Below, in pieces: positions 21,020-61,105 of a stretch of 64,000 nt of DNA (the stretch's first letter is position 1; every line of letters begins with the position of its first letter). The stretch comes from Meghimatium bilineatum. Taxonomy: Eukaryota; Mollusca; Gastropoda; Stylommatophora; Philomycidae. Position numbers and translations under genes: made by a program. Where the stretch lies: the NCBI GenBank assembly GCA_034231615.1, contig CM067298.1, positions 5,945,799 through 6,009,798 of the forward strand, given 5' to 3'. Below the pieces are notes generated by a model, which was not told where the DNA came from, did no database searches, and saw nothing but the letters and a program-made list of their open reading frames with translations.

Positions 21020-21877
21020 TATAGGGCCTATGCCTACTACAAGCATCATCTAAATGAGGAGTGGGCAAAATATTACTCGCAGACTAAATCAGGCCCTTCA
21101 AATTATTTTCACAGACTGTTGGCTTCCTTTAAAATTTTAATCAAAGACCTAATAAACAGAGTGTGTTGGTCACATCCCACACACTATGCTCAATCTTACC
21201 AGCCCTCCGAAACAGGTTGCTCATGTCTGATCTAGATAACGTGGGCATAGGCATATGTTCTCCTGAATAATACCCATATGAACTAGTAAAAATGCTAGCT
21301 AGAAAACGGTGAAGAAACTAGAGAGGGGCGACCAAGATGGAAGAGCTAACAGCAATATCAAGGAAAGCTGTGACCAAAATGAAGAAAGTTTATGCATAGA
21401 AGAAAGGAGCAAGCCATGGCGCCAAAATATTAATAAAACGTTAATAATTACAGCTTACCACTGCTAGACGAATCCAAACCTGTTTTTGGTACCGTTGGTG
21501 CAGAACCTATATAGAACAAATAGAATATAGTTTATATGAAATAATGTTTTCATTGTTGCCAAGTTTAAGTCTCCGTGTATCACATTCACTATAATCTTTT
21601 AAAATTGATCACGTGGACAATGAAAGTAATTTGAAAGCAGATGGCAACGCTCAAGCCTACAGATTGGGGAGTTGGGGTGTTTACAGACCTCACCACTGGA
21701 AATCTGTAAATGACTCTCAGTATTAGGAATTCTGTCAAAACAGGATTGACCCACCACACTTTTTTTCAATTTCCAAGAAAAGATCACTAACATGTCATTA
21801 AAATTATGAACTTGCGCACACAAGTTTGTGTTAATGACTTTTTTAAGGTAACCCCTGCCTCCCAACCCTTGCTGAAG
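21020..21877. other. No gene seen
   Basis: No convincing ORF. A stretch at 21300-21440 vaguely resembles an RTE 3' region but is too degraded to call. Confidence 0.4.
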
Positions 21878-21885
21878 ACCTAGAC

Positions 21886-22068
21886 CAGTGGTTCTCAACC
21901 TTCCTAATGCTACAACCCTTTAATACAGTTCCTCATGTTGTGGTGACCCCAACCATAAATTTATTTTCGTTGCTACTTTATATGTGTTTTCCGATGGTTT
22001 AGGCGACCCTTGTGAGAGGGTCGTTTGACCACCTAAAAGGGTCGCGACCCACAGGTTGAGAGCCCCTG
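21886..22068. mobile_element. SPIN-like hAT non-autonomous element (MITE)
   Basis: The 183-bp element starts cagtggttctcaaccttcct and ends ggttgagagcccctg, with inverted termini. Its 8-bp TSDs are acctagac (21878-21885) and acctaggc (22069-22076), one mismatch. The left ~95 bp (attcctcatgttgtggtgac region) and right ~85 bp (tgtgttttccgatggttta, gggtcgcgacccacaggttg) agree, from memory, with the two ends of SPIN ('Space Invader') hAT transposons, with the coding middle deleted. SPIN is known for near-identical copies across distant animal lineages. No transposase is present here. A search against SPIN consensus sequences would settle the identity. Confidence 0.85.
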
Positions 22069-22076
22069 ACCTAGGC

Positions 22077-22450
22077 CTATACTACCCTGGTAACGTTAGA
22101 CCTATATGCAGACGTCCATCTTTTACATAAGTCATTTCCCCTATCTCGTGGAAAGGAGTTTTAGCACGTTGACAATCCTCTTTCGGTAAACAGAAAACGA
22201 ATGTAAATCATTGGACGTGACGACTTAAAACTATACCTCACTCATGTGAAGAAAATATTCAGTAATTGCTTATCAGAGCATTAGGTTCATCCTTTTCATT
22301 AACAATTTTGTGTAATAATTTTACTAAGTTCGGATTTGTTTCGTTTCAAATATTATTTGCATTGTGTGTATTCTCAATAAAGATATGAATAACAATTGTA
22401 CATACTCTTCTTTTTTTTACAATTATTCACTCTACAAAAAAACCTTATTT
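22077..22450. other. No gene seen
   Basis: AT-rich spacer. Confidence 0.45.
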
Positions 22451-22621: not shown

Positions 22622-25345
22622 TCTATTGTCTATCCCCAGGTGAATGATTGTTGATCGCATTCACTCTTGCCGTTAAGCGTATGGGTGGTATCTTAAGCTG
22701 TCGTTTCAAGGCCAGATGTGTCGCCGAGGTTGTATTTAGTCCATATGTGTTCAAGATCTTAATGTTTTCTATCCACCGTTTTCTTGGTCTACCTTTGGCT
22801 TTATGCACCGATATTCTTGTATTATATGCTCTTATTGGTATTTGGTTTGGCTTCATTCTCATAAGGTGACTGAACATTTTACTTGTTGCGTCTCAATATG
22901 TTCGATACATGATATTATACCAACTCTTTTCCTAATTTCTTCATTTCTTATTTTATCTAGTTTGGTAACCATTGCAGCTTTCCTCAGACACTTCATTTCA
23001 CATGTGATGATTTTTCTTTGCTGCGAAGCTGTTAAAGACCATGTTTGACATTGGTAGCACAGTGTTGGTATAAAAATTATAGATATTATTTGTTTTTTAA
23101 TTTCCATCTTGATCTTTGGATGAAGAAGTAATGGTGAAAGTTGGTAAGTCACTGTGTTTGCTTTCTGGCACCTTGTTTCTATTTCTCTGTCTAGTCTTCC
23201 ATCTTCGGAAAAAAATGCTGCCTAGATATTTAAATTCTTTGGCTTGTTTCACTTTGGTGTTATCTATTGTTATATTCATTGGTGTTGAAGACTTGCTAAT
23301 TTTCATAACTTCTGTTTTTGTACATTAATTTTCATGTTGTACTTCTGACATGCTAACAACAATGCATTGATGTGCTTTTGCAAAGTTTCCTCATCTTTGT
23401 ATATTAAACTTTGATCATCAGCAAATAATAATTCATTGATTTCATTATTAAGTTCTTCATCAGGTTTATTTGCAATATTTTCATCTTTGTTGATATGAGC
23501 TTCTTTTATTATTCTGTCCATGTATATGTTGAAAAGTAGGGGTGAAAGTACGCATCCTTGTCTTACTCCAGATCTTGTTTCAAAAGGTTCAGTCATTACA
23601 TCTGTTGTTCTTACTGAGCTTTGGCATTTTTGATATATTGCTTTTATGTTATCTAACCGTTGTCCTCTGATGTTATACATTTCTAAGGTTTCCCATAGAA
23701 TGTGTCTATCTACTCTGTCGAATGCCTTTTCCTGGTCTACAAATACTGTGTTTAAATCTTGATTGTATTCGATGTTTTACTCAGTTGTCTCAGTGTGAAA
23801 AGTGCGTCTGTACAGCTTGCTCCCCTTCTGAAGCCAAACTGAGAGGGGCTCAACTGTGGCTCGGCAATGTATCGCATTCTTTGTTCTATTATTTTTGCGC
23901 AGATTTTACCTGTGTGACTTAACAAGGAGATGCCTCTATATGATTCACACTCTCTCTTGCTACCTTTGTTTTTCTATAATTGTAGAATTACTGATTTTTG
24001 CCAGTCATCTGGTACTGTACTTTTCTTTCTGACCAGGCTATTGTGAATAGTCTGGCTAACCATTGGACTCCAGTATTTCTACACGCTTTTATTGCTTCGC
24101 TTGGTATACCGTCCTCTCCTGGTGATTTATTACTTGGGCTATGTTTTAAGGCTTCTTCTATTTCTTGATTTAGTATAATTGGTTCTGTGGCTTCTATATC
24201 TTTTTGAGCGTTGGTGGGTCTATATTCTGTTGTTATTGTTGGGTTGTATAATTCCTGGAAGTATTTTTTTCCATCTTGCTTTCCTATTCATTCTTTTCAC
24301 TAATGGTTTGCCATTTTTATCATTGATGATTGTTATGGGATTATAGCTCTCTTTTCTAACTCGCATAGATTTAATACTTTTGAAAAATTCTCTTGGGTTT
24401 GTTTTACATATGTCAGTTAAATGTTCTCCATACATGTTCCATGAATTAACTTTTGCTTCTTTTATTACAATCTTGACATTCTTTCTAGCAAGTCGATATT
24501 GTTGATAGTCGTCACGATGATGTTTGGATTTCAACCATTTCTGGAAACATTGTTTTTTCTGTTGTATGACTTTTTGTATCTCTACGCTCCACCATGATGT
24601 TTTCTTGTCTTTCTTGGGATGTCTTGTGCCGCATATGTTTTGTAGTTGTTTTAACATTGCATTTTTGAAATATCCCATTCTTTTTGGATGTTAGCAGTTT
24701 CTTTTGGTAGGCTATGAAAAATGTGAGTTATTTCCTTGCACAGTTCATCACTTTTATCGGTGTCCTCCAGTGCTTTCAACTTTAGAACTTTTTCCTGCCA
24801 TTGTCTTGATTCTTTTCTTTGTGTTGTTCTTGTTTGTTCTCTTTTCTCGGTGAGTATAACAGGTCTGTGATCTGTATTAATGTCTATATTTGAGAAAGCT
24901 CTTGCATCAGTGATGTGTCTCTTTTGTCTTTGTCTAACGAGAATGAAATCAATTTGTGATGATTGTTGTAAATTGTCCCATTTATACCATGTTTGTATGT
25001 GGCTTCGTCTGTGTTGGTAAAAATAATTTGTTATTATAAGTCCATGTTCTAGGCATATATTGACTAGTTTGTCTCCGTTATTATTTCATTCTGTTGTTAT
25101 GTCCCAAAAATTGCCTAAACAGTGTTCACGCCAAGCTCTTTTCTTGCCTATTCTCCCAATGAAATCACCCATGATGTATAACTCATCTGTATTGTTAATC
25201 TTGTTTAGCACATCTGATAGGCTTTCGAAATATTCAGTATTTTCTTCTATTTTGTCGTTGCACGGTGCGTATACTTGGATCAGTATAGTTGTTCTTTCCT
25301 CTTCTATTAGTTGTATCCGTATTATTATAAAGTGACCAGTTTTTA
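22622..25345 (-). pseudogene. RTE-L retrotransposon, long 5'-truncated copy
   Basis: Reading leftward from 25345 the decayed ORF gives the C-terminal half of an APE-like endonuclease (LYIMGDFIGRIG, QIDFILVRQRQKRH, NTDHRPVILT). It continues with a linker (frame 24220-24678, KKTSWWSVEIQKVIQQKKQC), then RT (frame 23303-23680 with RSGVRQGCVLSPLLFNIYMD and the catalytic LLFADDQSL). The thumb follows (CYQCQTWSLTASQQRKIITC) and the C-terminus (RAYNTRISVHKAKGRPRKRW ... DRQ stop at about 22623). Several frameshifts and stops separate the blocks, so it is dead. It is the most complete RTE copy here (about 2.7 kb); the N-terminal endonuclease is missing. Confidence 0.88.
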
Positions 25346-25383
25346 ATACATTGGTTCTCTTTTTTTTTTAATATATATATTTT

Positions 25384-32754: not shown

Positions 32755-34216
32755 AAATCTATTCTCTATCAATGTTTACTGTCTATCCTCAGGTGGAAGC
32801 TGGTTGATAGCATCCACACTTGCCGCTGAGGATAGGGACGGGAGCTGTAAGTTTCTGTTCAAGACCAGATGTGATGCCTGAGTCGTACTGAGTCCGTGTT
32901 TTTGGAGTGTGGTCGTGATGTTATCGATCCATCTCTTTCTCGGTCTTCCCTTGGCTCTGTATCCAGCTGATCGTTTGTTATAATCTCTCAATGGTAATTG
33001 GCTTAGGTCCATTCTCATAAGATAACCAAATCATTTTATCTGCTGACATTCTATATATTTGATACAAGACATTATTCACACTCTTTTTCTGATATCCTCG
33101 TTTCTTATTCTGTCTAATTTGATGACCATATCTGCTTTTCTTAAACACTTCATCTCACATGTGATGATTTTTCTCAGCTGGGAGGTTGTTAAAGACCATG
33201 TTTGACACTGGTAACAAAGTGTTCGTATGAAAATTGTAGATATTCTGACTCTTTATGTCCATATTAATCTTTGGATGCAGGAGTAATGGTGAAAGTGTAT
33301 ATGTCATTGCGTTTGCTTTCTGACATTTTGATTCCATTTCTCTTTCTAGTTTCCCATTTTCTTAAAAAAACACTTCCTAAAAATGTGAATTCTTGTGTTT
33401 GTTTCACTGATAAATTGTCTATTATAATATATGTCGTTGTTGGTGACTTGCTGATTTTCATAACTTCCGTCTTTTGTATGTTAATTTTCTTGTTATACTT
33501 CTTACAAGCTGTTAACAGTGCATCTAAATGGATTTGCATTTATTCTACGTCATTGTATATCAGGCTTTGATCGTTGGCGAACAGAAGTTCATTGATTTCA
33601 CTTGTGTTTTCATCTACTGAGTTGTCTGTATTGTTTATATTTCCCTCTTTTAGAATAATAACTTCTTTTGTTATTCTATGCATATTGATATTGAAAAGTA
33701 AAGAGAAAATCCCCCAACCCTGTCTGACACCTGATTTAGTTTTAAATGTTTCGATCTTTCCATCTGCTGTTCTCACTGCACTTATGCATTTTTGGTATAG
33801 TGCATTTATGTTGTCTAATATCTGACCACTGATGTTGTACTTCTCTAATGTTTCCCAGAGAATATTCCTATCTACTCTATCGAATGCCTTTTCCTGGTCT
33901 ATAAATGTATTGATATCTTTAATGTATTCAATAGCTTTTTCAATTAGTTGTCTCGGTGTGAATAGTGTGTCGGTGCAGCTAGTCCCTCTTCTAAAACTAA
34001 ATTGAGTAAGATTATCAGTTGTGATTCTGTTATACATCGTATTCTTTGCTCTAAGATCTTTGCGGATATTTTTCCTATATGTCTCAGTAGGGAGATGCCT
34101 CTGTATGATTCACACTCCTTTTTATTCTCTTTGTGTTTCCATATTGGAACAATTATTGACTTTTGCCAATCTACCGGAACTTTTCTCTCTGCCCATGCTA
34201 TGCTGAATAATCTTGC
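32755..34216 (-). pseudogene. RTE-L retrotransposon, third copy (RT to C-terminus)
   Basis: Minus frames: 33944-34222 (RLFSIAWAERKVPVDWQKSI, KECESYRGISLL), 33540-34037 (TFIDQEKAFDRVDRNILWET, KSGVRQGWGIFSLLFNINMH, NELLFANDQSLIYNDVE), 33264-33539 (HLDALLTACKKYNKKINIQK) and 32776-33018 (RDYNKRSAGYRAKGRPRKRW ... EDRQ stop). The catalytic box reads FAND, so one catalytic Asp is lost. The copy continues beyond a nested F element into 34828-34885 (ACGETEAIWLARLF). Confidence 0.88.
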
Positions 34217-34827
34217 ACGCATGTGGTTGCATCTGTGGGTCTCACCAATGGCCCACTAGACAAACCACCCATGCAACATAAAACCTTAGTAGATGAAATG
34301 CCGTTATATTGAGGTTATCTTCTTATAGAAACTTCATGGCACATCATCTATACAATTATGCTTATTATGCTGTCATTTTGTTGTTGAAATGTGTTTCATG
34401 TATACTTGAATATATGTATGCACCATCTGTGGTTGGGAGGGAGCCAGAGATGAACTGTGCAGCACTGGGGAGGCGGAAACTGACAGCACTGTTTTTTTCC
34501 TATGGCTGAGACCTATTATAGAGGGACAGTGACTCAGGGCGTGACAATTCTTTTGACTTGAACATTTGGTTGCATGCCTAGAGCAATAAAGAAGTTCGGC
34601 ATAACCAGTAGTCAATTGGTGGCGGTGAACCCTATCTTGGCTACAGTGGCTAGGAGCAGTGCATAGGTTGAAACTTACCTTCCTGGAGATGTGATAGTTA
34701 TTCTCTGGCTCTGGCCCGGGGTGGGCCGAAAATCCACAGACTTTCCAGTAATATAATGCCATTTAATGGCATTGGGTCAAAGGGCATGAGCCCATGGACC
34801 GCTGGATCAGCAACCAACCAATCAACC
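34217..34827 (+). mobile_element. F element, copy 2, nested in RTE-L
   Basis: It has a perfect 11-bp TSD, aataatcttgc, at 34206-34216 and 34828-34838. The ends are the same as the 11711-12331 copy: acgcatgtggttgcatctg at the left, caaccaaccaatcaacc at the right. Removing it rejoins the RTE-L frame (WLARLF|SIAWAE). The minus-strand 129-codon frame inside it is not conserved between copies. Confidence 0.95.
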
Positions 34828-38775: not shown

Positions 38776-38935
38776 AACAACTATAACATAAATATGACTG
38801 GCTAGTAAAGAGAATACATTGTCTGAAACATGATTACGTGGATTCAGCGACTAATTTTTAATGCAAACTAATGAAGTTCATAGATGAGACCAGTGGATCT
38901 CAACATGAAGCAAATATCCCCAGAGGTTCACATCA

Positions 38936-39016
38936 AATACCACAGAAAAATACCACAGAAAAATACCACAGAAAAATACCACAGAAAAATACCACAGAAA
39001 AATACCACAGAAAAAT
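38936..39016. repeat. 15-bp tandem repeat (about 5-6 copies)
   Basis: Perfect units of taccacagaaaaa(ta) type. Confidence 0.95.
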
Positions 39017-39039
39017 TTCATTTTGAATGATATTCAATG

Positions 39040-39345
39040 AGATGTATAGTAAATTCTTGTTCTTCGTTTGTTCTCAAACTCCCGCAGATTATCAGGATGT
39101 GGTCTGGAGAACGAAATGTGCTGTATGATGATTTCCAGCTTTGCTGCGATATCTGCACATTTCGTCCTGAAACATCAGACTTCAGTATGGTTTTTGGGTC
39201 ACTTTGACCATATATGGGACTGAACAGCCAAATCCACCACATAACCTCCTTAAGCCTCCTACGACATTCATGGGCTGCAATCAGTGTAGTTATTCTTTGT
39301 TCCCCTTTCCGTCCCGGCAACATACGAGCGTCATTTCGTAACATG
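39040..39345 (-). mobile_element. E element, copy
   Basis: The minus strand runs from 'cgtatgttgccgggacgg' through 'ggggaacaaagaataact' to 'gagtttgagaacaaacg' with a short A/G-rich tail. It is homologous to 36473-36745 over its whole length. Confidence 0.8.
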
Positions 39346-39985
39346 TTCTGGAGAAAATCAACTCACTTTTTTAGGCTCCATGTGAACCACGAAGGAAAAA
39401 ATGTCCTAAAATGGGATCACAAACTAATACAGCTTGAGAAGCACTGAAATTACATAAACCTATCTACGAAATGAGAGTCACCTGCCTGGAGATTGTTGAA
39501 AGGTGAATATGTAACAGAATTTTTTCATGGAAAGCAATCAATGCAGTTCGTACGTCATTTTATCACATGTTACAATTTCCCCTCGCAAACAAAACATTGC
39601 CTGAATCACAAGTAAAATGGGAGATCAGGTTTATCATGACATATTTTAGCTTGCAAATTAACTATTTTGTCAATAAATATGTCATTTTTTAAATTGTGAA
39701 ATATAAAGAATATATTGACACTATTAATTTTGAATTTGTCAACAAGTTTGACAGAACCTTTTATGTTCAATGAATGTGCAAACTATGCGGTGTATTTCAT
39801 GGCTGGTTGACATAGTTATTGCGAGGTAGGATGACGTCATGTCTGTTTTAGTTGGTAACTACGGGTTCGAAGTGTGCCTTTTGCAGAATGTTGTCCTCTG
39901 TGGAAAACTGTACGCCACAAAGTTATGTATAGTTGTTTCCACCTTTGAGGTTGACACCACAATGTATGTATGAAGATTTAATTTA
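39346..39985. other. No gene seen
   Basis: No supported features. Confidence 0.4.
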
Positions 39986-46671: not shown

Positions 46672-47112
46672 ATCAGGTGACATATTCTTCCCAGAACGTA
46701 GTCTTCTCTATGGATCTATGGAATTCTCCGCGGACTTGAGCAAGCTGTCCCGCCTATTTTAGTGACATGTGTACTTGGACAATGTCTTTTGTCCAACGAC
46801 GTCTTGGGCGGCCTTTGCCCCGGTTGCCATCTATCAATCCCTCCAATAACACTTTCTCCTTGCCGTCGTGTCTCTTAATGTGACCGAAAAAAATAGCTTT
46901 TTCCTTAATAAGGTGTTCAGAAGGCAGCCTTCCTGGATGTTAATTGTTCTTAACATCTCCAGGTTTGTTTTTCTTGCTGTCCATGGTATTCTCAGAACTC
47001 TTCTATAGCACTTTAATTCAAAAGATGTTATTCTCTTGGCCACTGTTTTATTTAGTGTCCATGCTTCACATCCATATATACCACAGAAAACACACATATT
47101 TGTAGTAAACAT
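46672..47112 (-). pseudogene. RTE-G LINE C-terminal relic, best-preserved copy
   Basis: The minus frame 46834-47112 is open for 92 codons: YGCEAWTLNKTVAKRITSFE, KCYRRVLRIPWTARKTNLEM, TINIQEGCLLNTLLRKK. A frameshift follows, then RRPKTSLDKRH-like sequence and the terminal 'tatgtcacctgatgatgatg'. It pairs with 30170-30625. Confidence 0.87.
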
Positions 47113-47138
47113 AACTTGGTTCTTATATTAGTACCCTG

Positions 47139-47432
47139 CCATAGGAAAAATCAGTGTTGTCAGTTTTCTCCTCCCCAGTGCTGCACAGTACATCTCTGGC
47201 TCCCTCCCAACCACATATGGTGCATACATATTTAAAAATATTCAAAGCATAAAACACATGGCAACAACAAAATAAAAGCATAAGAAGCATGCTTGTATAG
47301 ATTACTTGCCATGAAGCTTCTATAAGAAGATAACCTCAATATAACGGCAAGCCATCTACTAAGGTTTTCTGGTGCATGGGGGGGGGGTTGTCTAGTGGGC
47401 CATTGGTGAGACCCACAGACGCAACCGCATGC
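47139..47432 (-). mobile_element. F element, short form (5' half only)
   Basis: The minus strand starts at the normal F 5' end (gcatgcggttgcgtctgtgg) and stops after about 294 bp at 'ttttcctatgg', internal in the long copies. An 8-bp direct repeat, gtaccctg, lies at 47131-47138 and 47433-47440. It lacks the (CAAC)n tail. Confidence 0.8.
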
Positions 47433-47444
47433 GTACCCTGACAT

Positions 47445-47645
47445 TAAATGTCCGGTTCTGTGGCTGCGTGGTACAGAACATGTCTGTGATGGCCGGGTTC
47501 GAAATTGGTACAGGCAATTCTGCATCCGGACAATTCAGAAAGCAATGGCAAACTACTGAATCTATTTATATTGCCTTTAAAATAAATGCAACTTTAAAAA
47601 ATGCTGGATTAATGGCTAAGTCCTGAATAGGATACGCTACTATTA
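47445..47645 (+). mobile_element. SINE-4 (tRNA-derived), best copy
   Basis: A-box-like 'tgtggctgcgtggtacagaa' and B-box-like 'gccgggttcgaaattggtac' are about 30 nt apart, followed by 'ctgcatccggacaattcag', 'atggcaaactactgaat' and the end 'gtcctgaataggatacgct'. The end resembles the 3' terminus of the RTE at 26540-26560. It inserted beside the short F element. Confidence 0.83.
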
Positions 47646-47999
47646 GATGTACTTTTCTAGCATACATGGAACATGAAATTCTGTCACCGAATAGCCATGT
47701 CACAATCAACCGCCTTACTTCTGCAAATAATTCGTGTGTAACCAGATCTCATTTCTCAACTTTCTTCCTATAGGCTAATCCTCACTTTTAGGCTATGCGA
47801 TTGGCGGCGTAAGCTTGAATGTAATAGGGGTTGTTGTTATCGTCTTCACGTGTGAATGTTAGTTTAATATTCAAGAGTTGTTAAAAATTATGATTTAAGG
47901 AATAGAAATATAAAATTAGGCCTTTGCATCGAATACTGAATTTTATTGATTTCTTATTACAGTAGGAAATACAAACTTTCTGTTGTTTCTTTATTATCG
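47646..47999. other. No gene seen
   Basis: No supported features. Confidence 0.4.
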
Positions 48000-48640
48000 T
48001 AGAAAACGCCTATATTCTTTTCTTTCCTTATTCCAACAGAAAATGTAGAAATTCTTTTCTTTCCTTATTCCAACAGAAAATGTAGAAATTCTTTTCTTTT
48101 CTTTCCTTATTCCAACAGAAAATGTAGAAATTCTTTTCTTTCCTTATTCCAGATTTTTAAAAAGTCTATATTCTCTTATTTCCTTATTCCATTAGAAAAT
48201 GTCTATAGTGCCTATCTTCTTTTTTCTTTATTCCAATAGAAAATTTTGAAAGTATCTTCTTTACTTATTCAAAATGTCGAAATTTTATATCTTATTCCAT
48301 TCGAAAATGTCGAAATTCTCTTCTTTCGTTATTCCAATAGAAAATGGCGAAATTGTTCCTCTTTATTCCATTAGAAAATGTCGAAACTATCATCTTTTCC
48401 TTATTCAAATGGAAAATTTCTTTATTTTCTTCATTCCTTATTCCAATCAAATATATATATTCTCTTCTTTCCTTATTCTAATAGAAAATGCCTATATTCT
48501 CTTCTTTCCTTATTCTAATAGAAAATGCCTATATTCTCTTCTTTCCTTATTCTAATAGAAAATGCCTATATTCTCTTATTTCCTTATTTCAATAGAAACT
48601 TTCGGAATTCTCTTATGTCCTTATTCCCGTAGAATATGTT
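48000..48640. repeat. Degenerate 37-40-bp tandem array (about 16 copies)
   Basis: Units such as 'ttctcttctttccttattct' + 'aatagaaaatgcctata'. The frame 48274-48555 is produced by it. Confidence 0.9.
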
Positions 48641-49415
48641 GAAATCAATAGGTCATACTGTTAAGAGAATACGCTTCTGTTACTTTAGCTGATTGAACTT
48701 GACAGATCACCTTTTAGTGCACCTGTAAACCGTAGGCGTCGTGATTCTAAGCAGGAATGTTCACGTAATGTTATTGTTTGATATTGCCCTGTCCATATAA
48801 TTCAACAATCAGTTGGATATAACAGAATAACGAACATTCAGCTGAATAATTTTCCACGCTTTTAAGCTGTCATTTTAATGCAACTTGATAGTGATAATCG
48901 TCTGCAGACGGATAAGTCAACATAAAGATTTCAATACATTCTAATGGCAAATGAAAGTAGTCTCAGAACGATCATATTAAATGCCTGAATACAGTAATAT
49001 TTCGCACCACTGAAAGCTGTGTATACTGATCCGAACGTCTTTTCTATTCAGACTAATACAGGGACAATCACAAATTGAAGGACAAACAACTACGTCTAAA
49101 TAAATGATTGAAAAAAATCGACTGAATTTATTTCTTTGTGCCATAAATGACTGAATTAATTATTTTTGCTTTTCTAGGTAGAATCTTTGGGTGAATCAAT
49201 AGCCTGTCACCTGACATGTCACTGGAAAGAAAGCGGTATCCATAGTCTGGATTATTACCGAACATGAAGGCGACATTTAAAAAAATGTACCACTCGTTTA
49301 AATAGCTTACGAAGGGTGTTTCTACTAGTGAAGTATTTATCCTCTTCGCTACTGAACGAATCATTATCTTAATTCAAGTTTTCTGTTCAACTGATTAGCT
49401 ATTTATTTTGTATTT
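48641..49415. other. No gene seen
   Basis: The minus frame 49128-49364 (78 codons) has no recognised motif. Confidence 0.4.
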
Positions 49416-49419
49416 AATC

Positions 49420-49690
49420 TTCTTCTGCGATCAGTTTTCTATGCTCATAAGTCTAAACAGGAAAGTGGGTCGCCTCCATGAATTTAGCCGTCAGCATACG
49501 GTCCTCACGGTTGCCCTGCAGCTTGACATTCAGGTCTATCTCTTGGAACCACATTTTAGTTCTCGCATCATCGAAAAGTGGGCATGTCTGAAGAATGTAT
49601 TCTGGAGTCTGGGAATCTTTTTGACATGGGCATCGATCAGAGACATAGGCCCTACATTGAGATCATACATTGAAGAGAAGGGGGAAAAGG
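49420..49690 (-). pseudogene. LINE-A-like C-terminal relic
   Basis: The minus strand reads CPCQKDSQTPEYILQTCPLF, DDARTKMWFQEIDLNVKLQG and NREDRMLTAKFMEATHFPV stop, then a GAAGAAGAT tail. This is the Cys/His terminus (compare CTCGQAAQSAKHILQEC in LINE-A), from another LINE-A-related family. Confidence 0.8.
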
Positions 49691-49744
49691 CACACGCAGA
49701 CGACAAATAATGAAAAAAACTATCTGGGACAGATTGAGAAGCTG

Positions 49745-49890
49745 ACATAAAAACCATAAAACAAGTCTATGTATGTCATATTCGTCCAACTCTGGAATAT
49801 GAATTGAGCACATATGCAACAGCAGAAAATAAAAATCTTCACAAGCTGGACAAAATTCAGGTTCTTATTCTAATATATGCTGCTTGTTGT
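49745..49890 (+). pseudogene. LINE-A-like RT thumb relic
   Basis: Reads KTIKQVYVCHIRPTLEYELS, TYATAENKNLHKLDKIQVLI, matching SKVYQQGIRPHLEYGSAAWC ... LDKVQNQAL in LINE-A. Confidence 0.75.
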
Positions 49891-49907
49891 TATTATGAAT
49901 AACAAAA

Positions 49908-50610
49908 ATATGAATCATTACATTTCTCTCATATTGTGGAGTATTGGTATATGGTTTTATTTCTACATTTCTCTCATATTGTGGAGTGGAGTATTGGTAT
50001 ATGGTTTTATTGCAACATTTCTCTCATATTGTGGAGTGGAGTATTGGTATATGGTTTTATTGCTACATTTCTCCCATATTGTGGAGTGGAGTATTGGTAT
50101 ATGATTCTATTGCTACATTTCTCTCATATTGTGGAGTGGAGTATTGGTATATGGTTTTATTGCCACATTTCTCTCATATTGTGGAGTGGAGTATTGGTAT
50201 ATGATTTTATTGCTACATTTCTCTCATATTGTGGAGTGGAGTATTGGTATATAGTTTTATTGCTACATTTCTCTCATATTGTGGAGTGAAGTATTGGTAT
50301 ATAGTTTTATTGCTACATTTCTCTCATATTGTGGAGTATGGAATATAGTTTTATTGCTACATATCTCTCATATCATATTGTGAAGTGGAGTATTGGTATA
50401 TGGTTTTATTGCAACATTTATCTCATATTGTGGAGGGGAGTATTGGTATATGGTTTTATTGCTAGATTTCTCTCATATTGTGGAGTGGAGTATTGGTATA
50501 TGATTTTATTGCAACATTTCTCTCATATTGTGGACTGGAGTATTGGAATATAGTTTTATTGCTACATTTCTCTCATATTGTGGAGTGAAGTATTGGTATG
50601 TGTTTTTTTG
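49908..50610. repeat. 50-bp satellite, left block (about 14 copies)
   Basis: Unit: tacatttctctcatattgtg + gagtggagtattggtatatg + gttttattgc. Because the unit is not a multiple of three but lacks stops in several phases, long overlapping frames (e.g. 49936-50289) appear. They are not genes. Confidence 0.95.
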
Positions 50611-51851
50611 CTACATTTGGGGTGCAAAGGGAACGCATTGCTCTAGGCGGACCCAGGGTTAGCAGATAACCAAGATCCCAAATGTACCTCCACGCGGTGC
50701 ACCCTGGAAACAGAAATACAGCAGCTCGTGCTGATTCTGGCCAAATCATTTGGGGATCGTGTCCGAGAATGTGGAGGTAGCAGATGGAAAGAGATTTGAC
50801 TGCACAAGAGACAGACAATATCTCCGACACCACCAGCAGCACCACATATAGCGAAACTGTCGACATACAGTGAAGCTAGTCAGTCCAGTCCGAACATTGG
50901 AGGGGCGGCCAATGTAAAATGCATGTAAAGGTAGATGCATGGCGAGAGACAAATAGATTTCATACCGAGTACAATGAAACAATGAAAGGGCAGAACAGCG
51001 CTAGAGGGCTGCGCGAACTGCAAATAGAAAATGAAAAGTTCCTAGGAAAGGGGAACTACAAGCTCCGTCAGCTCGAGTCGAGCTTCTAGTTATATGTGTT
51101 CCTTACAGGCAGAGACCCAGACCCATTCATTGGCGTTTGGTAAAGCAAGAAGACCTAATCCAACTCTAATGTCGAGCCTTCCTAAACCGGAAATATGCTC
51201 GCGAAGAGAAAGGGTTCCGTACTCGATACGCTCAGGCACAAAAGGGACAACGATTTAGCCCTGGCCCAACTCTACTGTCAGGTTTTCCTACACCGGAAAT
51301 ACACTTGAAGAGAGAAAGGGTTCAGTACCTGATGGGCTCAGGCGCTATTGGGACAAGGACGGTCAGCTCGAGAACGCCTTGCTCTCAAACGCGTGGTGTG
51401 AGACTCGAACTTGGACAAGGGGTACACGATGTCGGTGAATGACACCTCGGCTAAGAGGGTGAAAGAGCCAGGGTCCAACTCATCTGTTGAGTTCTTCCTC
51501 TTAAGGAACCAGGCTCACGGATGAGAAACGGTTCAGTACCCAATGGGCACAGGCACAGCACGTCCAATTACACGAGGCAAGTTCATAGACAGTGGAACAC
51601 CTCGTTCGAGTCAGACGAGAACAAAAAAATCGTCTGGGCGAAGAGTCTCCACTACGCGTGCCTGGAGACAGATATAGAGGCTGTCACAGGCTAAGGGTAG
51701 CCCACCCGAATTGTCAAGGCATGCTGAAATCGGATGTGCTAGGCCTACAAGGCGCATAATGGTGGCACAACGTAATCACGCTCCCGGCGGAAATCGCACG
51801 GATATCCGTGATGGTTACAATGGAGCGAACGAAAAACAAACAAACAAACAT
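50611..51851 (+). mobile_element. 1.24-kb unclassified element with (CAAA)n tail, inserted in the satellite
   Basis: The insertion is flanked by ttgctacattt, which is part of the satellite but fits a TSD, and ends aaaaacaaacaaacaaaca. It is clearly more GC-rich than its surroundings. Three ~100-bp internal repeats (51158-51257, 51264-51358, 51472-51570) share 'ccaactct', a 'ccggaaata'-like core and 'gggttcagtac'. The tail-proximal region can be read RIMVAQRNHAPGGNRTDIRD before YNGANEK. No RT motif is present. A decayed reverse relative is at 5540-5885. It may be a non-autonomous retroposon or the 3' part of an unknown LINE. Confidence 0.7.
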
Positions 51852-52600
51852 TGCTACATTTCTCTCATATTGTGGAGTATGGAATATAGTTTTATTGCTA
51901 CATATCTCTCATATTGTGAAGTGGAGTATTGGTATATGGTTTTATTGCAACATTTCTCTCATATTGTGGAGTGGAGTATTGGTATATGGTTTTATTGCAA
52001 CATTTCTCTCATATTGTGGAGTGGAGTATTGGTATATGCTTTTATTGCTACATTTCTCTAATATTGTGGAGTATTGGTATATGGTTGTATTGCTACATTT
52101 CTCTCATATTGTGGAAGGGAGTATTGGTATATGGTTTTATTGCTACATTTCTCCCATATTGTGGAGGGGAGTATTGGTATATGGTTTTATTGCTACATTT
52201 CTCTCATATTGTGGAGAGGAATATTGGTAAATGCCTATGGTCTTATTGCCACATTTCTCTCATATTGTGGAGTGGAGTATTGGTATATGGTTTTATTGCT
52301 ACATTTCTCTCATATTGTGGAGGGGAGTATTGGTATATGGTTTTATTGCTACATTTCTCTCATATTGTGGAGGGGAGTATTGGTATATGGTTTTATTGCT
52401 ACATTTCTCTCATATTGTGGAGGGGAGTATTGGTATATGGTTTTATTGCTACATTTCTCTCATATTGTGGAGGGGAGTATTGGTATATGGTTTTATTGCT
52501 ACATTTCTCTCATATTGTGGAGGGGAGTATTGGTATATGGTTGTATTGCTACATTTCTCTCATATTGAGGAGGGGATTATTGGTAAATGCCTATGGTTTT
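51852..52600. repeat. 50-bp satellite, right block (about 15 copies)
   Basis: Continuation of the left block. Here a gaggggag variant predominates from 52100 onward, so the array has two subfamilies. Frames such as 51929-52675 are artefacts. Confidence 0.95.
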
Positions 52601-52925
52601 ATTGAATCAATGATGGTGGCACATTCTCATTCTCAGATCTGCACAGCATCGTGGGATGCAAGTAGGGGATATTAAGCTAGCCAATGACAGGCAAAGTATC
52701 TGAACACGACAACAATTACCAAAGTATCTTAACGTAGGCAATAATCGAGTCTCTCGTCAATTATATTAATATAGCCATATGGACTCATTGATTTAAAAAA
52801 AATGATGCTATTTTACTTTTCCCCCTGTAATTTTGTTTGGATGCAGACACAAAGCATGTAAAATGTGATAGAAATTAAGGAAAGTGTGCTGATTCGACAA
52901 CGAGTAGGCTATCTCAGATTACCAG
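52601..52925. other. No gene seen
   Basis: No supported features. Confidence 0.4.
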
Positions 52926-53305
52926 TAAATTTTAAGTAGGAAGCCAGAGGACAATTATTAAAAATTCTTGAGACTAACGGGAATTGAACCAGTCCGTTCA
53001 CGGCACCAAATCGCATAGCAACTATTGCATGCGTTCTTCCGTACTTGACTAACCGCATCTCCAAAAAAAGATGCAATTTTGTCAAGACATTCAAAGCGTG
53101 CACTAAAGATCCTAAACGCACCAATCGAGACAATGAGTATTACAACAACAACAAACATCCCGTACAGGTATTGAAATATCCTCAGTAACAACAAACATAT
53201 AACATTTAATATCCGTATTGGTTATACAAGGGCCGATAGGTCTTCTTGTAAACATAGATAACATATATAGACTCCTGTTAGTCTCAAGAATTCTCAAATT
53301 ACCAA
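52926..53305 (-). mobile_element. SINE-2 (tRNA-related), better copy
   Basis: The reverse complement contains 'gatgcggttagtcaagtacg' (A-box-like), 'actggttcaattcccgttag' (B box) and a tail region 'ctctggcttcctacttaaaa'. The B box is about 75 nt from the A-box-like site, suggesting origin from a tRNA with a long variable arm or an altered spacing. Confidence 0.8.
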
Positions 53306-53376
53306 CGTTTTTTTAAATGTTGTAACCAATAACGATTACCAACTTCAATCAAGTGTAATCTCGAGTAACGTAGGGG

Positions 53377-53745
53377 ATCATGCTTCTCCACGGCTCGCTG
53401 TCTCTTGTGTTGTTAATAAGTTCAGTTGGTGACATCTTTTTGTGCCACAGTGACAACACATCTAGAAATGTTTTTTTTTGGTCTTCCTCTGTCCTCTCTC
53501 ACCTTGATCTTTCCGGTGGTTATGAAATGTTCAAGTTTTGCTTTTCTCATCAAATGGCCAAAAATCTTTACTGTCCGCTTTAAATTTTTGCAGCAATTTG
53601 TTGTTTTACTCCAGAACCTCTGAGCACTTCTAATTTTCTTGGCTGTCCATGGAATTTTCATTATTCTTCTTTAAAATAACATCTCATTGCCTCCAGCTTA
53701 TCATTGGCACTTTTGTTTACTGTCCATGCCTCGCATCCATAAAGA
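53377..53745 (-). pseudogene. RTE-G LINE C-terminal relic
   Basis: Minus frame 53422-53661: MKIPWTAKKIRSAQRFWSKT, RTVKIFGHLMRKAKLEHFIT, TGKIKVREDRGRPKKNISRC. The upstream 'GCEAWTVNK' block is at 53700-53740 in another frame. Confidence 0.85.
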
Positions 53746-53839
53746 AATGAAAATCATCAACTTATCTGAACGTAAATCAACAACAATTCTTAATGTAGCC
53801 AACAAGCATGAAAGATCTACTCCAATTTTTTTTTCAAAA

Positions 53840-54050
53840 ATATCTCGCAGAGAACAGTTGAGGAAGAAGAAGAAGAGGGGACGAGAGGAAGTATGAATTG
53901 ATAATATTCAAGTCTGGACTGGAATAAGATTCTACACACTCAAACAAAAAACTGATAACAGAGAAGAATGGCGAAATTTGTGTGCTGATGTTTCCAGAGT
54001 GACACCCCTACGACACTGAAGTGTTATGTGTTTGTTGATGATGTCTGTAG
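53840..54050 (+). pseudogene. RTE LINE 3' relic
   Basis: Reads SRREQLRKKKKRGREEV, then DNIQVWTGIRFYTLKQ and EEWRNLCADVSRVTPLRH. Homologous to 12960-13195. Confidence 0.75.
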
Positions 54051-54094
54051 TCTCTAGATAAAATAAAAAGTAAAATGATCCAACGTTGTAGCTC

Positions 54095-54580
54095 ATGGAT
54101 GGGGTAGATTGTAGCTCATGGATGGGGTAGAGTTCATGGATAGCAATTGTAGCTCATGGATGGCAGATTGTAGTTCATGGATGGCAGATTGTAGCTCATG
54201 GATGGCAGATTGTAGTTCATGGATGGCAGATTGTAGCTCATGGATGGCAGATTGTAGCTCATGGATGGCAGATTGTAGTTCATGGATGGCAGATTGTAGC
54301 TCATGGATAGCAGATTGTTGCTCATGGATGGCAGATTGTAGCTCATGGATGGTAGATTATATCTCGTGGATAGCAGATTGTAGTTCATGGATGGCAGATT
54401 GTAGTTCATGGATAGCAGATTATTGCTCATGGATGGCAGATTGTAGCTCATGGATGACAGATTGTAGCTCATGGACGGCAGATTGTAGCTCATGGACGGC
54501 AGATTGTAGCTCATGGATGGTAGATTATATCTCGTGGATAGCAGATTCTTGCTCATGGATGGCAGATTGTAGCTCACAAA
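54095..54580. repeat. 21-bp minisatellite (about 23 copies)
   Basis: Unit gtagctcatggatggcagatt. Since 21 is a multiple of three, both strands stay open for 150+ codons (DCSSWMA and YNLPSMS heptads). The frames carry no further domain, so I treat them as artefacts of repetition. Confidence 0.95.
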
Positions 54581-54762
54581 GAAAATGAAAGAACATATCT
54601 CATTGGCAGAAAAAATTGTAATTGTTGACACAGTAATCTGGAGAGATAAATTAGTTATACATTTTATACAGAGTAAAGAATGTGATGCTGTGTGTAATAA
54701 TGTAGGCTCTATAAGTTCACAGAGACATGGGAGTGACTAGAGGAGAGGGAAGAAATTGTGCC

Positions 54763-54812
54763 TTCTTTGGAAGTCCTCTCTGGAAGTCCTCTCTGGAAGT
54801 CCTCTCTGGAAA
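54763..54812. repeat. 15-bp tandem repeat (3-4 copies)
   Basis: Unit ggaagtcctctct(ct). Confidence 0.85.
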
Positions 54813-54984
54813 GAACCAAAGAACACATAATCATAACCCATCCTTCTCGTGTTAACTGCTAACAAACCTTCCCACCACCTCCTAGTTGGACAACCCCCAA
54901 AGAGAATCTGTCTGGGTCATGCTAGAATCTAGAGAGTAAAGTTCTCTTTGCTATCATACAGAGAAAACAAATGTTGGGTTATAA

Positions 54985-55135
54985 ATGGGAGGCCAGCGTT
55001 GGGTAATGAGTTATAAACCAAAATCATTGCACTCCCGACAGACTTATAGATGCTCAGTCTCTCCCAGCAAATGTCGAAGGGCATACATGCTAATTGTTCC
55101 TGTGACGTGATGGTTGTATACACTCATCATCATAC
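54985..55135 (-). pseudogene. LINE-C2 3' end
   Basis: The reverse complement gives NHHVTGTISMYALRHLLGET followed by EHL and a C..C pair, the C-terminal 'TGT(V/I)SR..L...EHLW.CP.C' block of the LINE-C type. A related end is at 58135-58245. Confidence 0.65.
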
Positions 55136-55139
55136 TCTG

Positions 55140-55810
55140 TCGGCGTCCAGTACAACAATACATAATTGACTATCAAATATAACAATGATTAAAGATCAAC
55201 AAATATAACAGATATAGTCAATCAACACATTTTATTTCATTTTTTGTTTAAAGACAGAAAAAGCACACCATATAAAAACTTTACAAAGGACAGCAGAAAT
55301 AACTGACCAAAATATGTTTATTCAGCTCTATAAATCTGAAAAATCAATAATTCAATTTCTTGTGTAGTCAAACACAATATAAGTATCACAATTATTGCCA
55401 CCTTTAGCAGGTCTAAAATAATATAAAAAAATTAGAAAACAAATAGAAGTAACATTAGAAAATAGCAAAGGAGTTTCAAAACTCATGGCAGATTGATATG
55501 AGAAAAAGGTGATAAAGTGTAGATATCATCATATTGTCATCAGATCTGAACCTGTTACTGGAGTTTGAGAGGGGAGCAAAGAGCACAGAATAATTACACT
55601 GCCATCTGCTATGCATGTCACATGATAATTATAAAATAATCCCTTTACTGCGAGCAGACAGCTCTTGACACATGATGATGATGAATACATCCATTTAGTT
55701 TGAGCAGGTAGCTCTTGACAGCCCATAACCTTTCTGACAAAATTACAAGTCCTTCTCAAGTGAGTTCTTGTACTCACTAACAAACACAAGATACAACCAA
55801 CAAGCTATGT
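55140..55810. other. No gene seen
   Basis: AT-rich; the minus frame 55529-55789 has no recognised motif. Confidence 0.4.
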
Positions 55811-55814
55811 ACAC

Positions 55815-56545
55815 TCGCTGATCAGATTGGGTTCAAGATCAACACATCCAAATATAAAATCATGGAACTCACCAACTCATCAAATAACATCTCAGCAAAC
55901 AACCAAATACTGGAGAAAAGTCTCCACCTTTACTTATTTGGCTAGCAGAATGCCTGCAGATGGTGACTCAATGAAATAAATAAATACACGCATAGCAGTC
56001 AGAGCAAACACATTCACTAAACTAACAAGCATCTGGAAATCCAAAGACATAAGAAGAAACACCAACTTAAAACTATTCGACTCCTGTGTTGACTTATCAA
56101 CTCCATCATTGACTTATGATAGTGAAAGCTGGAAATCAACACAGACAATGGATCAAAAGTTAAACATCTTTGAAAACAAATGCCTCAGAAAATTGTTGAA
56201 CATAAAATGGAGCGCTTTCGTCATAACTAGCGACCAAAGAAATAAAACACACCAAGAATATGTTTCAAATGTTATAAGAAAATACAGATGGAAATACCTG
56301 GGACACGTTCTTAGACTAGATGAAAACAGGCTGAACCAGCAAGCCATTATGTGGACACCTGAGGGGAAAAGAAAAAGAGGAAGACCCAAAATTACCCTAA
56401 AAAGCACCGTACTTAAAGAAGGAGAAATAATAGGTTGCAAGTCCATACAAGAAATAAAAGTACCCACAGCGGACAGCAATGCATGGAGAATCAAAACTTC
56501 TGCCCTATGTTCCACCTGTGGTATGAAAGGAACAAACTAACTAAC
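55815..56545 (+). pseudogene. RTE-J LINE: RT end to C-terminus
   Basis: Earlier frames give IGFKINTSKYKIMELTN and RAVRANTFTKLTSIWKSK-like blocks. Frame 56109-56540 (143 codons) then reads YDSESWKSTQTMDQKLNIFE, NKCLRKLLNIKWSAF, RKYRWKYLGHVLRLDENRLN, GKRKRGRPKITLKSTVLKEG and SALCSTCGMKGTN stop. This is the GH..R / KRKRGRP / W / CxT C-terminus of a widespread RTE-like group. The last 143 codons are intact, although RT itself is lost. Confidence 0.85.
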
Positions 56546-57695
56546 CTGAATTGAGTAATCGAGGTGACTCCCAAACTCATATTACGCTGTAAGAAGGCAT
56601 GATTGTGTTGGGGGAGGAGTTTATGGATGTATGTTTAGTCTCTGAAAGGTGATATTCTAGTGCACCAGTACCCCAGGATCACGACATCCAGCCAGAAGGT
56701 CATCACAGACTTCGGGGCCAACTAACTCATCATTCTTCTCAGACTGTTGATCCATCCATGGTGATGGTATATCTAGCATTCCCTGCCACAAAAGGACAAA
56801 GGTGATATGTCCAGTGTCCTGAATCTTTTCATCACCCATGAGGATTATTTGATAGGAAACAAAAATAACAATTTAATACAAGGCATACAATGATAATGAT
56901 ATTGTTTCACTTGTGACAGTTTGTCAGCCTATCCCCCAACTTTCCTTAGTCACATCCTATTACATGCCTGGAAAGAAGACAGTAGCTATATTTTTGCACA
57001 CCCTGAATTAGAAGTCCAGACCTTAGTTGCCCATATGGGCAATGCATGTTACATGAGAGAACTAAAGTGATTGGGTGTGAAGTAGGCTAAACCACCCCAT
57101 GATATCCGATGTCATGAACCATGCTGAAGATTCATGTCTAAACTACTAAAAGGAAATTAACCATTTTATCTACGCCATGAAACCACTAGCAGGAAATTAA
57201 CCATTTTATCTATGTCATGCCTTGAGATTGCAGAAAAGTGAGAGCAAATTTTTCCTGAGTAGCTGACTATCCAGGTTATAGCACTGCATCTTACAGTTAT
57301 ATTGAGTAAAACAGTATTTGGGAATTACAAAATCTATTTAAAAAAACACCTCAATCAAACAGATTGCCAGAGCAAACAACAATTTGGAATTTAAAGTAAA
57401 ACTGCTCAGGAAACAAAATCACAAACATGAACTTAGTAAAACTGCACTACCTGGCTCAGGAAACATGAATCAGAAATGTGAACTTCTCAGGAATCTATCA
57501 TTATGAGCTTAAGATTATTATAATATGTTAATGATACCAAAAGGAATATTCTGGAATATTACACATGTCTAAGGCACAGGGAAAGCCTATTTTTGGATAT
57601 GGAACTATGGGGATGGACAGTTCACCAAGACAACAATTAGCAAAAAGAGATTTTACAGTAATTCATAAGAGTATCTTGATGAGAGTATCTTGATG
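56546..57695. other. No gene; 2x ~50-bp repeat at 57140-57225
   Basis: 'aggaaattaaccattttatc' occurs twice. No ORF is supported. Confidence 0.4.
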
Positions 57696-57699
57696 AGAG

Positions 57700-57960
57700 T
57701 ATCTTGATGAATGATTTCATGAATATGAGGTAGTTTCAAAAGGTTCCCAGAATTAGTGGATTACATAGAAAAAAAGTAATAATAGAATTATCTACACTTC
57801 CTTCAAAGTAGTTCCCTTTAACAACTACACACTTTTGTCAATGTGCATAATGCAGCTGTAAACATTCATGAAACCCATTCTTTGACAAACTGTCAGTCCT
57901 CTGAACAGAAATCTCTTGTACCTCCCTGAATACAGAAATTTCTTTTTTGACAAGAGCAAA
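57700..57960 (-). pseudogene. Possible mariner-like transposase C-terminal relic
   Basis: The reverse complement has stretches like 'LLKGTTLKEV' and 'NPLILGTF.NYLIFMK', reminiscent of the C-terminal end of mariner-type transposases (CI.L.GDYFEG). It is degraded and short, and I am not sure. Confidence 0.3.
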
Positions 57961-58134
57961 GGAAAAGTTATATGTTAATCATATTACATACTAAATGATT
58001 TAATTTGACAGCAGCATAAAGTCTGCAATTGGAATTAATTAAAGCTTCATTTTTGTAAGGTACCGGTAATACCTCTTTCAAAAATTGATGCAGTGTCTGT
58101 CTATTTAGTGATAGGATATAAATTATGAACCGAA

Positions 58135-59290
58135 ATGATTTCATACCGGGTAGATATAAAGATGCTCAGTTTTCCTCAGACAATCATCAAGGGAAAGCAT
58201 GCTAATTGTTCCTATACCTCAATGGTTGCATGTATTCCTCATTCTACATGTAGGTGTCTAATTTTACTATTTCCAAATTTCATACTAAACTCCATGAATC
58301 TCAGCAATGATGTGCTATCAATCATGGTTTCCTTATCCAGCAGCCGTTTCCTCATCCAGCAGCTGCTTCCTTATCTAGCAGCTGCTTCCTTATCTAGCAG
58401 CCGTTTCCTCATCCAGCAGCTGCTTCCTCATCCAGCAGCTGCTTCCTCATCTAGCAGCTGCTTCCTTATCTAGCAGCTGCTTCCTTATCTAGCAACTGCT
58501 TCCTTATCTAGCAGCTGTTTCCTCATCCAGCAGCTGCTTCCTTATCTAGCAGCTGCTTCCTTATCTAGCAGCCGTTTCCTCATCCAGCAGCTGTTTCCTT
58601 ATCCAGCAGCCGTTTCCTCATCCAGCAGCTGCTTCCTTATCTAGCAGCCGTTTCCTCATCCAGCAGCTGCTTCCTTATCTAGCAGCCGTTTCCTCATCCA
58701 GCAGCTGCTTCCTTATCTAGCAGCCGTTTCCTCATCCAGCAGCCATTTCCTTATCCAGCAGCCATTTCCTCATCCAGCAGCTGCTTCCTTATCTAGCAGC
58801 CGTTTCCTCATCCAGCAGCTGCTTCATAAGCAGTTTAAATATGTCACCCTTATCTATTCTCAACTCCTAATCCATTGATCCATTGCATTCAAGTCTGTCT
58901 GCTCTCTCATTACCACAAACTTCTGCAAGTCCCAGGCAGTAGATCCATATGATGCCATGGCGGTTGGAAGCAGCTATAGATCCTAGCCAATCATATCAAC
59001 ATCTGCCATTTTGTATCTTACAAAACATGGACAATAACTGCTTTAGTACAAGAAAATGCAGAGAGTCATTTGCAGAAGGTCATAAACTTAACTTCCATCC
59101 ACATGCTTGAAGTGTCTGTTCTGTCCACATGCTTGAAGTGTTTGTTCTGTATGCTTAACTGTATTCAGCAATGACACCTAACAATAGTAGTAAAACTCCA
59201 CCCAGACTTCTCACCTTGATGTACAGATCCATCATTGAATACAATAATGTTATCTCCATAGCGATTGAATACAATAACATTATCTCCATA
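58135..59290 (-). pseudogene. LINE-C2 relic: RNase H and C-terminus with embedded minisatellite
   Basis: From right to left: NIIVFNDGSVHQGEKSGWSF (RNase H start, Asp kept), a degraded middle, GNERADRLECNGSMD-like sequence near 58890, then a 19-bp minisatellite. After it, LLRFMEFSMKFGNSKIRHLH and a terminal LRKTEHL-like block resume. This matches LINE-C domain order but the sequence is distinct. Confidence 0.7.
58325..58828. repeat. 19-bp minisatellite (about 26 copies)
   Basis: Unit cagctgcttccttatctag with variants (ccgtttcctcatc). CAGCTG palindromes recur at each unit. It sits within the LINE-C2 relic. Confidence 0.95.
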
Positions 59291-59624
59291 GCAACAAGCA
59301 AATATGATAGACCAATAATGAGTTGAGCAATTTTGATGTGTGTTTTAGTTCTGCCCTAATCTCTACACTTCCTTGTCAAGAGTGATTATTGCTTTGTGAA
59401 AGTCTGTTGAGTTTCATCAATCAAGCACCATTCTTCTCCTATAGATAAAAATCCAGACTGTGGTTGCCTTTTCCAATTGCAGTTTCATTGCCTGTATAAT
59501 CTATGTCATTCCTTGCTTAAATCTTGTGCTCTTTACATCATGAATATTCATGAGCTGTGGATGTCGCTGATCTGACATGACATGCATGTATGATTTAGTT
59601 TGGGCAACAGCATGGTGGGAATGT
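59291..59624. other. No gene seen
   Basis: A 32-bp direct repeat (tgaatacaataatgttatct type) lies at 59235-59290; nothing else supported. Confidence 0.4.
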
Positions 59625-60085
59625 AGTCCCAGTATATAACTCATTATTAAATACTTCCAGCATATATCTCATTGTTACAATAGAGTACCTCCAGCATATA
59701 TCTCATTGTTACAATGGGAGTACGTAAAGCATATATCTCATTGTTACAATAGAGTACCTCCAGCTTATATCTCATTGTTACAATAGAGTACATCCAGCAT
59801 ATATCTCATTGTTACAATGGGAGTACGTCAAGCATATATCTCATTGTTACAATAGAGTACCTCCAGCATATATCTCATTGTTACAATAGAGTACCTCCAG
59901 CATATATCTCATTGTTACAATAGAGTACCTCCAGCATATATCTCATTGTTACAATAGAGTACCTCCAGCATATATCTCATTGTTACAATGGGAGTACGTC
60001 AAGCATATATCTCATTGTTACAATAGAGTACCTCCAGCATATATCTCATTGTTACAATGGGAGTACATCAAGCATATATCATTGT
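59625..60085. repeat. 34-35-bp minisatellite (about 13 copies)
   Basis: Unit 'agagtacctccagcatatat' + 'ctcattgttacaat', alternating with a 'gggagtacgtcaag' variant. Confidence 0.95.
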
Positions 60086-60159
60086 ATATAAATATTTTTT
60101 AAACATAGGCAACTGAAGAAACTAGTTCAGTGGATACCTCTTATAGTGCATATAAGATA

Positions 60160-60356
60160 TATGTTTATAACTAATTTCTCTATTTAATATGTTTATAACT
60201 AATTTCTCTATTTAATATGTTTATAACTAATTTCCATATTTAATATGTTTATAACTAATTTCTCTATTTAATATGTTTATAACTAATTTCCATATTTAAT
60301 ATGTTTATAACTAATTTCCCTATTTAATATGTTTATAACTAATTTCCCTATGTAAT
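60160..60356. repeat. 28-bp minisatellite (7 copies)
   Basis: Unit tatttaatatgtttataact + aatttctc, with 'catat' and 'ccctat' variants. Confidence 0.95.
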
Positions 60357-60379
60357 AACACATTTCAAAATCCCTAATT

Positions 60380-60396
60380 ACTTTATTCTTTATTGT
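60380..60396 (-). promoter_or_regulatory. Possible polyadenylation signals
   Basis: On the minus strand the sequence holds two AATAAA hexamers (caataaagaataaag) about 370 bp after the stop codon of the exon at 60761. This is plausible as the end of its 3' UTR. Confidence 0.4.
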
Positions 60397-60760
60397 GTAT
60401 AAAGGCATATAGCAAATATTTATTAGAAATATATAAGTTATTAGATATATATTTTATCTTTCCAGACCAATTTGTCATACAGGGATTCCACTATATACAA
60501 GTATACAATGGAAGTTAAAGATTTTAATATGATGTTCTTAGATGTAACAGACATTAACCCCCTATGGCCATTTCTAGACAATAATGACATGTGATGAACT
60601 TAAAATCATACAGACAATAATGTCATGTGACCAGAAACCGCTAATTATTGTGGGCAGTTCACTTGATTTGTTTAAATATCTATTTACATGTATGATAGAA
60701 GTTGAAATAAAAATATCCTAATTAGGAAAATCAAATATTTTCACAGTGAAATCCAGTGCT

Positions 60761-61105
60761 TTATGTTAAAATTAAATCTGATTTGACTTCAGAATCTATC
60801 AAAGATATCTTCCTGATATAAGGGAAAGTGAAAGGATCATGATGTATGACTCTGCCTTTCTCTTCTAAAGTCTGGTCTATCAACTGCTCGTTGCTCTCCT
60901 GTGGTGACTCTACAGGCACATGTTCTGATATACCATCTTGATCATTATAAAATTCAAAATTATCGTCTCTCGCAAACTTAGTTTGTTCAACCTCTAGTGT
61001 TGGCTTCAATTCTCTATAAATTTGAAGCAGACGATTAAGCTTGCATGTCTTTTCTCCTCTGCTAGGTCCACCAAGTTTAATGAATCTTGCATTAATACCA
61101 ACAGC
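60761..61105 (-). CDS. Terminal coding exon of an unidentified host gene
   Basis: The minus strand has a good acceptor (tttatctctttgatgacag; AG at 61106-61107) followed by 114 open codons and TAA at 60761-60763. The protein begins AVGINARFIKLGGPSRGEKT, then CKLNRLLQIYRELKP. It continues into an acidic, Ser/Glu/Gln-rich tail (QESNEQLIDQTLEEKGRVIH, FPYIRKISLIDSEV). Sharp protein-like composition from the acceptor onward, lack of repeats and a downstream poly(A) signal favour a genuine last exon. An ATG-only reading would start later (61009) and miss the conserved-looking first 32 residues. I do not recognise the family. Upstream exons should lie to the right, probably beyond this window. Confidence 0.62.
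   Translation of the reverse strand, partial: AVGINARFIKLGGPSRGEKTCKLNRLLQIYRELKPTLEVEQTKFARDDNFEFYNDQDGISEHVPVESPQESNEQLIDQTLEEKGRVIHHDPFTFPYIRKISLIDSEVKSDLILT

Follow-up and report, generated by a model that had tools for sequence, protein, structure and literature searches.

A degraded, probable SPIN-type hAT MITE in a window of probable gastropod DNA

Overview

The 183-bp element considered here is very probably a single, degraded, non-autonomous copy (a MITE) of a SPIN transposon, that is, of a hAT element of the Buster group, residing in what is probably a gastropod genome. It lies in a stretch of DNA 64,000 nucleotides in length, the whole of which is referred to here as the ‘window’. 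SPIN is well known as a transposon that crosses phyla. The element carries inverted ends and a duplicated target site, has no comparable counterpart elsewhere in the window, and displays homology to SPIN-type sequences that continues from its ends into its interior. Coordinates are collected in Table 1.

Table 1. Positions of the element, its parts, and an open LINE frame within the window
Feature	Position	Strand	Basis or remark
SPIN-type hAT MITE (very probable), non-coding, 183 bp	21886..22068	+	sequence, homologues, window scans
Left target-site duplication, ACCTAGAC	21878..21885	.	nnnTAnnn, CTAGA core
Right target-site duplication, ACCTAGGC	22069..22076	.	7/8 same as left
5' terminal inverted repeat, CAGTGGTTCTCAACCT	21886..21901	+	
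3' terminal inverted repeat, CAGGGGCTCTCAACCT	22053..22068	-	2 differences vs 5' repeat; read on - strand
42-nt (14-codon) gap relative to P0124	21986..21989	.	approximate place; breakpoint alignment-dependent
GYGACCC matches (n = 4)	21943..22050		element positions 58, 118 and 159 on +, 154 on -
Open LINE frame, 1127 codons	1491-4871	+	Pfam RVT_1, endonuclease, RNase H

Ends and target site

The ends of hAT transposons begin with CAG. So too do the terminal inverted repeats (TIRs) of this element, which are 16 bp in length and identical to one another at 14 of those 16 positions, i.e., as seen upon comparing the first 16 bases with the reverse complement of the last 16. The flanking 8-mers, ACCTAGAC and ACCTAGGC, represent an 8-bp target-site duplication (TSD) of hAT type, and this duplication, which can be written as ACC-TA-GAC, fits as well the nnnTAnnn pattern of Buster elements. 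A repeat finder applied to the interval 21700-22300, and to that interval only, reported one inverted repeat, consisting of the element's own ends. The segment gggtcgcgacccacaggttg is located at 22039-22058.

Within the element the motif GYGACCC is found four times, the matches at element positions 159 (+) and 154 (-) overlapping as a single palindrome and leaving three separate places. There are just 3 matches in the rest of the window, which corresponds to 0.009 expected per 183 bp versus the 4 that are seen. By analogy with other hAT elements, these motifs may be candidate transposase-binding sites.

How unusual this combination of features is can be judged from the window itself. Flanking 8-mers of at least 7/8 identity, at the spacing of the element, are found at 45 of 63,800 window positions. 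If ends of the form CAG...CTG are also required, 100-400 bp apart and again with flanking 8-mers of at least 7/8 identity, then eight places in the window qualify, with the element's TIRs matching at 14/16 and those of the next best place at 7/16. When as many as 3 mismatches are tolerated, the first 24 bases of the element have a single occurrence in the window, and 0 of 100 shuffles gave a match. The earlier note's description of a 183-bp element with these ends and an 8-bp TSD (7/8) is thereby borne out, no other place in the window being comparable.

The element itself contains no long reading frame. No second copy of it was found in the window, with the best remaining match covering 14 bases at E 0.11, and no hAT domain was detected at E<=0.01 among the 20 window ORFs that were scanned with Pfam (of 83 stop-to-stop frames of at least 90 aa). 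Possible decayed hAT-like ends, CAGTGGATCTCAA ... TTGAGAAGCACTG, are present at 38891 (+) and 39434-39446 (-), 556 bp apart. They enclose a 13-bp tandem array and may be due to chance. As no TSD is visible there, 38891-39446 is not counted as a hAT element.

Homology beyond the ends

A database of 5.8 billion proteins was queried with the element as read in frame 1, stops being represented as X. Among 57 candidates, 40 match at E<=10, the best of them at 2e-8 and the worst at 0.096. These proteins (P0123-P0162) carry SPIN-type readings, and 39 of the 40 are without an organism name, being found mostly on short contigs. The sole organism-named match, P0151 of Gekko kuhli (E 2.5e-3, 87% identity over 38% of the query), is found on a 33-Mb contig, with an NCBI title that includes the flag UNVERIFIED_CONTAM.

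Thirty-six of the 40 homologues reach codon 1 of the element (P0136, P0138, P0156 and P0162 do not) and these 36, which may be non-independent, were used to compare the two sides of the left boundary. Over the 20 residues upstream of 21886 identity is 68/667 (10%), versus 645/720 (90%) over the 20 residues downstream, the latter figure being biased upward because the homologues were selected by words which they share with the element; the upstream stretch played no role in that selection. The repeat therefore starts, and unrelated flanks stop, at 21886. In addition, 24 of the 36 homologues have Leu at residue -2, versus 13.7% in their flanks (binomial P 5e-13, the 36 again being possibly non-independent). 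That is what would be predicted given a target duplication of the form nnCTAGAn, such as is seen in the left flank of the window copy.

Further into the element, P0124 is colinear with it across a gap of 14 residues, and the window copy therefore is one without 42 nt at that place. P0144 and P0161 extend to the element's 3' end, with P0128 stopping 12 bases before.

A different source of comparison is supplied by a pair of reverse primers serving the 3' arm of a mouse Ate1 targeting construct, as given in the accessible text of PMC2767504 and likewise in that of PMC2837401. Searching literature text for sequence strings returned nothing beyond these two papers, neither of which, in the text available, names an element at that location. 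The first primer, R1, matches the 3' TIR at an edit distance of 3/20, a value that none of 2000 shuffled versions of the element attained, though this match is weak by itself because R1 also matches elsewhere in the window at 3 edits. The second primer, R2, matches the interior of the 3' half at an edit distance of 4/20, equalled by 3 of 2000 shuffles, with 5 its best elsewhere in the window. Both primers would appear to lie within one mouse element.

The name ‘SPIN’ is based here on the flagged gecko protein, the mouse primers, and a presumed SPIN-type consensus, rather than on a named Repbase or Dfam consensus. Aligned to what we take to be a shortened SPIN/URR1-type (mouse-type) consensus, the element agrees at 166 of 182 positions (91%), with the placing of the internal gap uncertain. 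The 16 differences from this presumed consensus consist of 10 transitions and 6 transversions. Translations of the same presumed consensus hold strings of 24 and of 20 residues which are found exactly in P0127 and P0124. Homology to SPIN beyond the TIRs is seen, that is, with the Gekko kuhli protein (UNVERIFIED_CONTAM), with the 39 proteins of unnamed organisms, and with the mouse primers. The agreement with SPIN that the earlier note had described for the ends also holds against retrieved proteins and primers, and it extends past the ends.

Additional nucleotide searches were made in other kinds of DNA. Element patterns gave 0 and 0 matches in genome contigs, E. coli genomes contained no match to the element, and 5 plasmid and 11 phage records gave short matches only, at E 2 or worse. 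Pattern searches of viral contigs found no SPIN, and in an alignment search of such contigs (P0121 plus 18 of the 40 matched proteins) 47 stretches fit a pattern, with none confirmed. The single exact pattern match in a viral contig consists of a 20/21-base match along with shorter, weak pieces in GC-rich DNA, and was taken as chance.

Alternative explanations and origin

Buster is the placement within which SPIN is found in the portion of PMC3499496 available, where nnnTAnnn also is given as the TSD of TcBuster in insects; in the part of PMC3517528 available, it is by this same consensus that the Mar MITE is placed in Buster. SPIN nevertheless is filed under hAT-Charlie in the available text of PMC4054807, such that group labels overlap. 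That overlap lends something to the idea that the element belongs instead to another Buster- or Charlie-type hAT family, one sharing little with SPIN beyond the CAGTGGTTCTCAA end. So too does the lack of specificity of that end when taken alone, as four further window positions carry it with 1-2 mismatches, against a chance expectation of 1.95 in all. Against this, homology continues through the interior, and the interior-matching mouse primer, like the gecko protein, aligns inward of the TIR. Membership in another family is accordingly viewed as improbable.

Less probable still is vertical descent, i.e., SPIN having been inherited by gastropods and tetrapods alike from the ancestor they share, as identity is about 90% over the first 20 codons versus copies of mostly unnamed origin, and 91% versus the presumed mouse-type consensus. 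Such identity in non-coding DNA would be unexpected after >500 My of descent. SPIN, moreover, is described as horizontally transferred in the available part of PMC11614815, even if descent can draw upon there being another gastropod which, per the available text of PMC5440852, has a SPIN-like hAT. Vertebrate contamination or a chimeric assembly could also have brought the element into the window, and the SPIN-type readings of the 40 database proteins, mostly from short contigs of unnamed origin, might be read in this way. An 8-mer of the surrounding DNA, though, is duplicated on the two sides of the element, which a chimera would not create, and the organism-named matches of the window's LINE, among those listed, are gastropods. 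This explanation is considered to be extremely unlikely.

A SPIN-type MITE is thus the preferred reading, and the SPIN family probably entered the host lineage horizontally because non-coding sequence so alike in gastropod and tetrapod would be hard to obtain by descent. Under this SPIN-type reading, a SPIN transposase encoded elsewhere would bind the ends of the MITE, and perhaps the GYGACCC motifs too. Supplied in trans, that transposase would move the MITE by ‘cut and paste’, inserting it at a CTAGA-type site. Later mutation would then have changed one base of the TSD and two bases of the TIRs.

Other features of the window

The open LINE frame has 1031 protein matches at E<=1e-30 among 7996 candidates scored, of which the best 120 were listed. 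Among these 120, four are organism-named and every one is from a gastropod: Bradybaena similaris (74% and 51%), Littorina saxatilis (57%), and Batillaria attramentaria (52%). The closest among the matches listed, at 89%, is a JGI protein without an organism name. From these matches the host is probably a gastropod and may be a pulmonate. Broken LINE copies are seen as well at 22859-25367 and 33264-34255 (-), with frames 23303-23773 and 33540-34106 matching RVT_1.

The region 47000-64000 is rich in minisatellites, tandem arrays taking up 5431 of its 17000 bases versus 2244 of 47000 elsewhere. Two of these arrays, 49936-50618 and 51850-52589, lie 1.2 kb apart and share an almost identical 50-bp unit, with its phase differing between the two. 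At 60761-61105 (-), preceded by ttgatgacag, there may be the terminal exon of a host gene resembling enolase. Its match to Enolase_C (E 0.0025, 17.6 bits) is under the Pfam cut-off of 21.5, and searches gave 23 protein candidates, 0 of them at E<=0.001, along with no PDB relative at E<=0.001.

Comparison with known systems

Copies of SPIN or of SPIN-like elements are in print for several animals. A hAT in the genome of the snail Biomphalaria glabrata shows significant identity to SPIN and is present in approximately 1,000 copies (PMC5440852, in the part available), the painted turtle has 385 SPIN copies (PMC4054807, likewise in part), and SPIN is found in Rhodnius, with SPIN_NA_12_RP and SPIN_NA_13_RP of Rhodnius prolixus named in the available text of PMC11614815. 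Within the portions of the literature searched that were accessible, PMC5440852 is the sole link found between SPIN and molluscs, and no SPIN report was found for Stylommatophora.

The earlier note had proposed the element as a cross-phylum marker, should the host be an invertebrate. This stands to the extent that a SPIN-type MITE is present in an invertebrate, but support does not extend to its being a new marker, a SPIN-like hAT of Biomphalaria glabrata and SPIN in Rhodnius having already been reported. As a SPIN-like hAT in Biomphalaria glabrata is in print, the window element therefore is one more gastropod copy rather than a discovery, and taken alone it agrees with a pattern already published. 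Its value is that a copy with a TSD and a shortened interior can be compared with those of tetrapods, Rhodnius and Biomphalaria, and could be dated from sister copies. Were the host a land snail or slug (Stylommatophora), then it might tentatively be suggested that terrestrial gastropods acquired SPIN, whether independently of the published freshwater case or prior to the divergence of the pulmonate groups. Parasites common to snails and tetrapods would, if that suggestion were true, be a candidate route of transfer.

Among elements known by description, OC1, hAT1 and ET are horizontally spread DNA transposons of tetrapods and Rhodnius that are listed together with SPIN (PMC11614815, available text). 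SPIN_NA_12_RP and SPIN_NA_13_RP, from the same text and again likened by description, are closer in being non-autonomous SPIN elements of an invertebrate, though with an insect as host. The SPIN-like hAT of Biomphalaria glabrata, also likened by description only (PMC5440852, in part), shares with the window element a gastropod host. With SPIN MITEs of the Buster group, the window element has in common its TIR, an 8-bp TSD with central TA, its interior, and a short, non-coding form. It differs from them in having 42 nt fewer than P0124 and, between its own two ends, in two TIR differences along with one in the TSD.
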